DNA from: an uncultured Bacteroidaceae bacterium
GTDB lineage: Bacteria > Bacteroidota > Bacteroidia > Bacteroidales > Bacteroidaceae
Assembly: GCA_944320965.1 (NCBI GenBank)
Contig: CALUJO010000002.1
Coordinates: 1 to 64,000 of the forward strand
Reading direction: 5' to 3'
DNA: 64,000 nt
Shown in pieces: positions 264 to 528 of this stretch; the first letter of the stretch is position 1, and every line of letters starts with the position of its first letter. The position numbers and the translations under genes are program-made. The notes below the pieces were generated by a model. The model did not search any database, had not been told where the DNA came from, and saw only the letters and a list, made by a program, of their open reading frames with translations.

Positions 264-491
264 AAAAAAAGAGACGAAATTTATATTTCGTCTCTTTTAT
301 ATATGAACCATATTGGCGAGTGATGATAAAACTCCGTATGACATGATTTTGAGTGCCCTTCCTCTTTGTAATCCACCGGCTTTCGCTCTCCGAAGAGTGT
401 GGCCCGCCATTGAGAATAGAAGCTTGTCTCGGTAGTTGGATATAATTGATGAGTTTCCCAATTCAACCAATATGGCTTTTTCTCTTATATC
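264..491 (-). ncRNA. candidate structured small RNA (about 225 nt)
   Basis: A minus-strand transcript is predicted from about 491, just after a consensus promoter (498-528), to a strong terminator. The terminator stem is 285-298 with 267-280, followed by a U tract when read on minus. Within it, CCAATATGG (467-475) pairs with CCATATTGG (308-316) as a 9-bp closing stem, and GAGTTT (451-456) pairs with AAACTC (329-334) further in. The centre (about 355-415) is clearly more GC-rich than the flanks and holds a small hairpin, CTCT-CCGA-AGAG (386-397 on plus). The only long frames across it run past the terminator or begin upstream of the predicted start, so a protein is unlikely. Length and the long closed-hairpin shape would suit a 6S-type RNA, but I cannot assign a family. 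Promoter, closed fold and terminator are seen; the RNA itself is inferred. Confidence 0.6.
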
Positions 492-497
492 GTATGA

Positions 498-528
498 CAA
501 ATATACGGTTTTATCTGAATACATCAAA
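498..528 (-). promoter_or_regulatory. Bacteroidetes -33/-7 promoter of the small RNA
   Basis: On the minus strand TTTG (plus 525-528), a spacer of exactly 19 and TATATTTG (plus 498-505) match the Bacteroidetes primary-sigma consensus TTTG-N19-TAnnTTTG. The start is expected near 491. Confidence 0.75.

Follow-up and report, generated by a model that had tools for sequence, protein, structure and literature searches.

6S RNA restrains transcription globally. Among the bacteria, the Bacteroidota stand out by an unusual promoter and an unusual housekeeping sigma factor. Three Rfam families are relevant here: RF00013, the classical 6S RNA (SsrS of E. coli and B. subtilis), RF01685 (6S-Flavo), and RF01693 (Bacteroidales-1), the latter two being listed without a clan. 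The Bacteroidales-1 motif originates from Weinberg et al. 2010 (PMC2864571), and the wording of Rfam for its identity is "6S-Bacteroidales RNA suggested". Ryan et al. 2020 (PMC7366714) describe the detection in B. thetaiotaomicron of a Bacteroides 6S RNA together with two classes of product RNAs (pRNAs). The locus considered here lies near the start of a contig of an uncultured Bacteroidaceae bacterium, in a window of 64 kb that represents the whole stretch of DNA analysed. By PanC, the window is closest, among named relatives, to uncultured Bacteroidaceae MAGs, with 76% identity at best.

Assignment to RF01693 and distribution

The Rfam covariance scan of the window returned two matches only, a tRNA at 1-74 and the following RNA:

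300-477, minus strand: Bacteroidales-1 / 6S-Bacteroidales RNA core (RF01693 covariance match)

Membership of RF01693 is defined by a covariance score of at least 60 bits, the gathering threshold; the window RNA reaches 141.4 bits (E 1.1e-23) and covers positions 1-179 of the 179 of the model. The conserved blocks GGGAAACUCAUCA, ACCGAGAC, AAUGGCGGGCC, GGAUUACAAAG, CUCAAA, and CGGAGUUU are common to the RNA and the family, and the only difference of note is that the Rfam consensus structure lacks two helices, P1 and P2, that the sequences support. The preliminary description had presented the RNA as unannotated; if this is taken to mean unknown, it was mistaken, as the RNA belongs, as a typical member, to a catalogued family whose expression has already been reported in Bacteroides. 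The covariance search that it had proposed as a check thus gave RF01693, and neither of the other two 6S families. Within positions 1-1500 of the window, RF00013 is not matched even with E-values of up to 10 allowed, and RF01685 does not match the window RNA even at E 10; direct membership in either family was therefore dropped. The RNA resembles RF00013 in having a closing helix, an open centre, an apical arm, and a stand-alone gene, while displaying no similarity to it detectable by covariance search. RF00013 is also absent from the 41 relatives searched, which thus showed no rival 6S gene. Given this absence and the RF01693 match in the control genome of Bacteroides ihuae, the 6S RNA described by Ryan et al. 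would be the RF01693 RNA.

Within the taxonomic family of this bacterium, RF01693 is found in 146 of 151 genomes, as a single copy in 145 of these 146, which agrees with its definition as a Bacteroidales RNA that is usually single copy. A more sensitive search of the five remaining genomes, all drafts, gave no match in four and chance-level scores only in the fifth. Genome G082 (81% complete) harbors three different 6S copies (C219:281-460, C214:1194-1408, and C107:2447-2627), which may come from a mixed bin or represent a genuine duplication.

Closing helix, second helix, and apical arm

From the 5' to the 3' end of the RNA, the structural elements are the following:

467-477, minus strand: 5' arm of P1, AGCCATATTGG, 11 pairs with 306-316
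451-457, minus strand: 5' arm of P2, GAAACTC, 7 pairs with 328-334
424-450, minus strand: 5' strand of the putative central bubble, unpaired in the consensus
354-423, minus strand: apical arm with AATGGCGGGCC and GGATTACAAAG, from the Rfam structure and covariation
335-353, minus strand: 3' strand of the putative central bubble, holding the conserved CTCAAA, itself conserved and unpaired with the 5' strand
328-334, minus strand: 3' arm of P2, GAGTTTT, 7 pairs with 451-457
306-316, minus strand: 3' arm of P1, CCAATATGGTT, pairing with 467-477

The stem initially noticed, 467-475/308-316, is exact and extends further than claimed, to the 11 pairs of P1. A fold check had been proposed as well, and P1 is present in the MFE fold of the region (z -2.7, more stable than 200 of 200 shuffles) and is recovered by RNAalifold without guidance. 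In an alignment of 55 diverse RF01693 members, 94.7% of the P1 cells are paired, as compared to 80.8% in shuffles, and both-side changes number 110 versus 24. Shifting the partner strand by 1-3 columns reduces pairing to 25-54%. Uncompensated breakage of this stem in relatives had been named beforehand as grounds for refutation; the stem came through, with compensatory changes in 10 of its 11 pairs. The Rfam consensus structure of RF01693 shows these positions as unpaired.

The second helix, P2 (GAAACTC with GAGTTTC), is nearly invariant: it is paired at 93.5% across the same 55 sequences, with rare both-side changes in three pairs, and 17 of them lack pairing at its column pair 27/194. Among the few compensatory changes, CTC/GAG is replaced by GTC/GAC in L089. 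RNAalifold prefers another helix at columns 166-168/189-191, which is doubtful because the L089 change of GAG to GAC goes with that of CTC to GTC at columns 29-31, in favor of P2. With a covarying P1, an open region in between, and an apical arm, the RNA has the rod-like layout of 6S RNAs, and by analogy with their architecture the open central region may act as the bubble. Most members are about 175 nt long; two RNAs of about 210 nt (L073:909-1124 and L087:940-1155) possess a long apical-loop insertion.

Promoter, terminator, and genomic context

The signals surrounding the RNA on the minus strand are the following:

498-528, minus strand: Bacteroidota-type promoter, TTTG (528-525), N19, and TATATTTG (505-498), exact in the sequence
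264-494, minus strand: predicted transcript of about 225-230 nt, from the promoter and terminator positions
267-298, minus strand: intrinsic terminator hairpin of 14 bp followed by a T-rich tail, from a hairpin search

The promoter TTTG-N19-TATATTTG is the sole exact N19 match within the 64-kb window. With spacers of 18-21, the same form occurs at 7 sites per 64 kb, compared to 1.9 in shuffled sequence, which makes the promoter motif alone weak evidence. Of 89 relatives, 73 retain a TAnnTT(T/C)G box ahead of the RNA, while chance would account for about 5%. The 5' end of the transcript is expected a few nucleotides past the -7 box. The hairpin search found one terminator, versus 0.2 in shuffles, and a crude scan detected a terminator-like hairpin in 37 of the 89 relatives. 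That promoter, stem, and terminator motifs have all come together by chance has a negligible probability: such promoter forms are indeed expected about twice per 64 kb, against which stand the Rfam E-value of 1e-23 and the covariation.

The promoter and the terminator put forward in the preliminary description are borne out, its span of roughly 225 nt fits the predicted transcript, and its proposal of an independent structured RNA gene holds, with a promoter and a terminator of its own and a covarying structure. Judged by sequence comparison, this is a conserved stand-alone RNA gene, the product of which has a closing helix followed by a short second one, an open centre, and an apical arm.

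The accompanying statement that the region holds no good ORF is correct as far as conservation is concerned, and needs amending in that two TTG-started ORFs, of 76 and 61 amino acids, do overlap the RNA. Their median open lengths in relatives are 14 and 18 codons, respectively, and the longer ORF takes its TTG from the TTTG of the promoter itself; a coding explanation was rejected, as neither ORF is conserved. These two ORFs are what would speak for reading the locus as a cis-acting leader or as the mRNA of a small protein. This reading is most improbable, given the lack of ORF conservation, the terminator proper to the RNA, indels among relatives that do not come in threes, and flanking genes that differ outside the genus.

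Divergent from the 6S gene, an ECF-type sigma factor (Pfam Sigma70_r2 and Sigma70_r4_2) is encoded at 737-1327 on the plus strand, followed by a MATE exporter at 1665-2996. This pair is found beside the 6S gene only in two genomes of the same genus (L002 and L003); the neighbourhood is thus a genus-level one, synteny says little, and conservation of neighbouring genes was set aside as evidence. On the other side, a strong hairpin with a T tail (76-112) directly follows the tRNA-Asn gene found at the very start of the contig; weak Rfam matches to plastid 3'UTRs at this place were discarded as just a terminator-like hairpin. In a subclade with the P1 3' arm CTCC(T/A)CCC(G/C)GCT (L043, L045, L050, L061, L066, L067, L072, L073, and L087), a same-strand tRNA-Ser lies close downstream of the 6S gene, in some cases with no obvious terminator in between, and co-transcription of the two is possible.

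Relationship with 6S-Flavo and proposed function

A covariance model built from Bacteroidales-1 sequences alone and including P1 and P2 (R1) recovers all 12 tested RF01685 loci (L099-L110), at full length and in place, with E-values of 5e-9 to 3e-4; on this basis, the two Rfam families look homologous. RF01693 and RF01685 match the same place in three genomes of a phylum-wide sample; L114, from a direct scan, brings the number of these divergent genomes to four. In the intermediates L111, L112, and L114, the Bacteroidales-1 blocks AAUGGCGUGCC and CGGAUUACA occur together with the 6S-Flavo ends ACUCAAC and GGAGUUU. In the set of Flavobacteria-type and intermediate sequences, whose alignment was fitted to the model, 10 of the 11 pairs of the closing helix covary, with pairing at 95.6%. 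The window RNA resembles RF01685 in its overall architecture and end blocks (ACUCA...GGAGUUU), while the sequence of its apical arm differs. Of 119 genomes drawn from across the order, 30 contain members found by R1. RF01693 looks homologous to an accepted 6S family. Bacteroidales-1 and 6S-Flavo very probably form one Bacteroidia 6S family, of which the Rfam RF01693 model misses the shared closing helix and the near-invariant AACUC/GAGUU helix, and at least some of the missing Bacteroidales members would be found by a corrected model.

A different function has to be weighed, that of a structured trans-acting Bacteroidales sRNA pairing with mRNAs and distinct from 6S RNA. Rfam gives the 6S identity only as "suggested", and RF00013 does not match; the homology of RF01693 with 6S-Flavo, a closing helix that spans the whole length with compensatory changes, the near-universal single copy, and the pRNAs reported for the Bacteroides 6S RNA in PMC7366714 make such an sRNA improbable. 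The locus is best read as the 6S RNA gene of this uncultured Bacteroidaceae bacterium, a member of RF01693, with a probability of about 0.92. What had been offered as a guess, a 6S-like identity, is therefore supported by the RF01693 match, the 6S-Flavo homology, the covarying closing helix, and the published detection of a Bacteroides 6S RNA with pRNAs.

By analogy with known 6S RNAs, the long hairpin with its central bubble would imitate melted promoter DNA and bind RNA polymerase holoenzyme that contains the housekeeping sigma factor. The bound polymerase would be withheld from promoters, chiefly during stationary phase or starvation. Once nucleotides are available again, it would copy the RNA template into short pRNAs, which would open the RNA structure and free the enzyme. 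Templating of pRNAs is reported, in PMC7366714, for the Bacteroides 6S RNA of B. thetaiotaomicron, an organism other than that of the window.

As a member of its family, the locus is an ordinary one, and the practical gain is an improved structural model that includes the closing helix. The additions are modest, small, and checkable: the closing helix missing from the Rfam model and the link between RF01693 and RF01685. The improved model joins two Rfam families and would make for better annotation. Given the unusual promoter and sigma factor of the Bacteroidota, their 6S RNA would be useful for testing how such an RNA copies a promoter.
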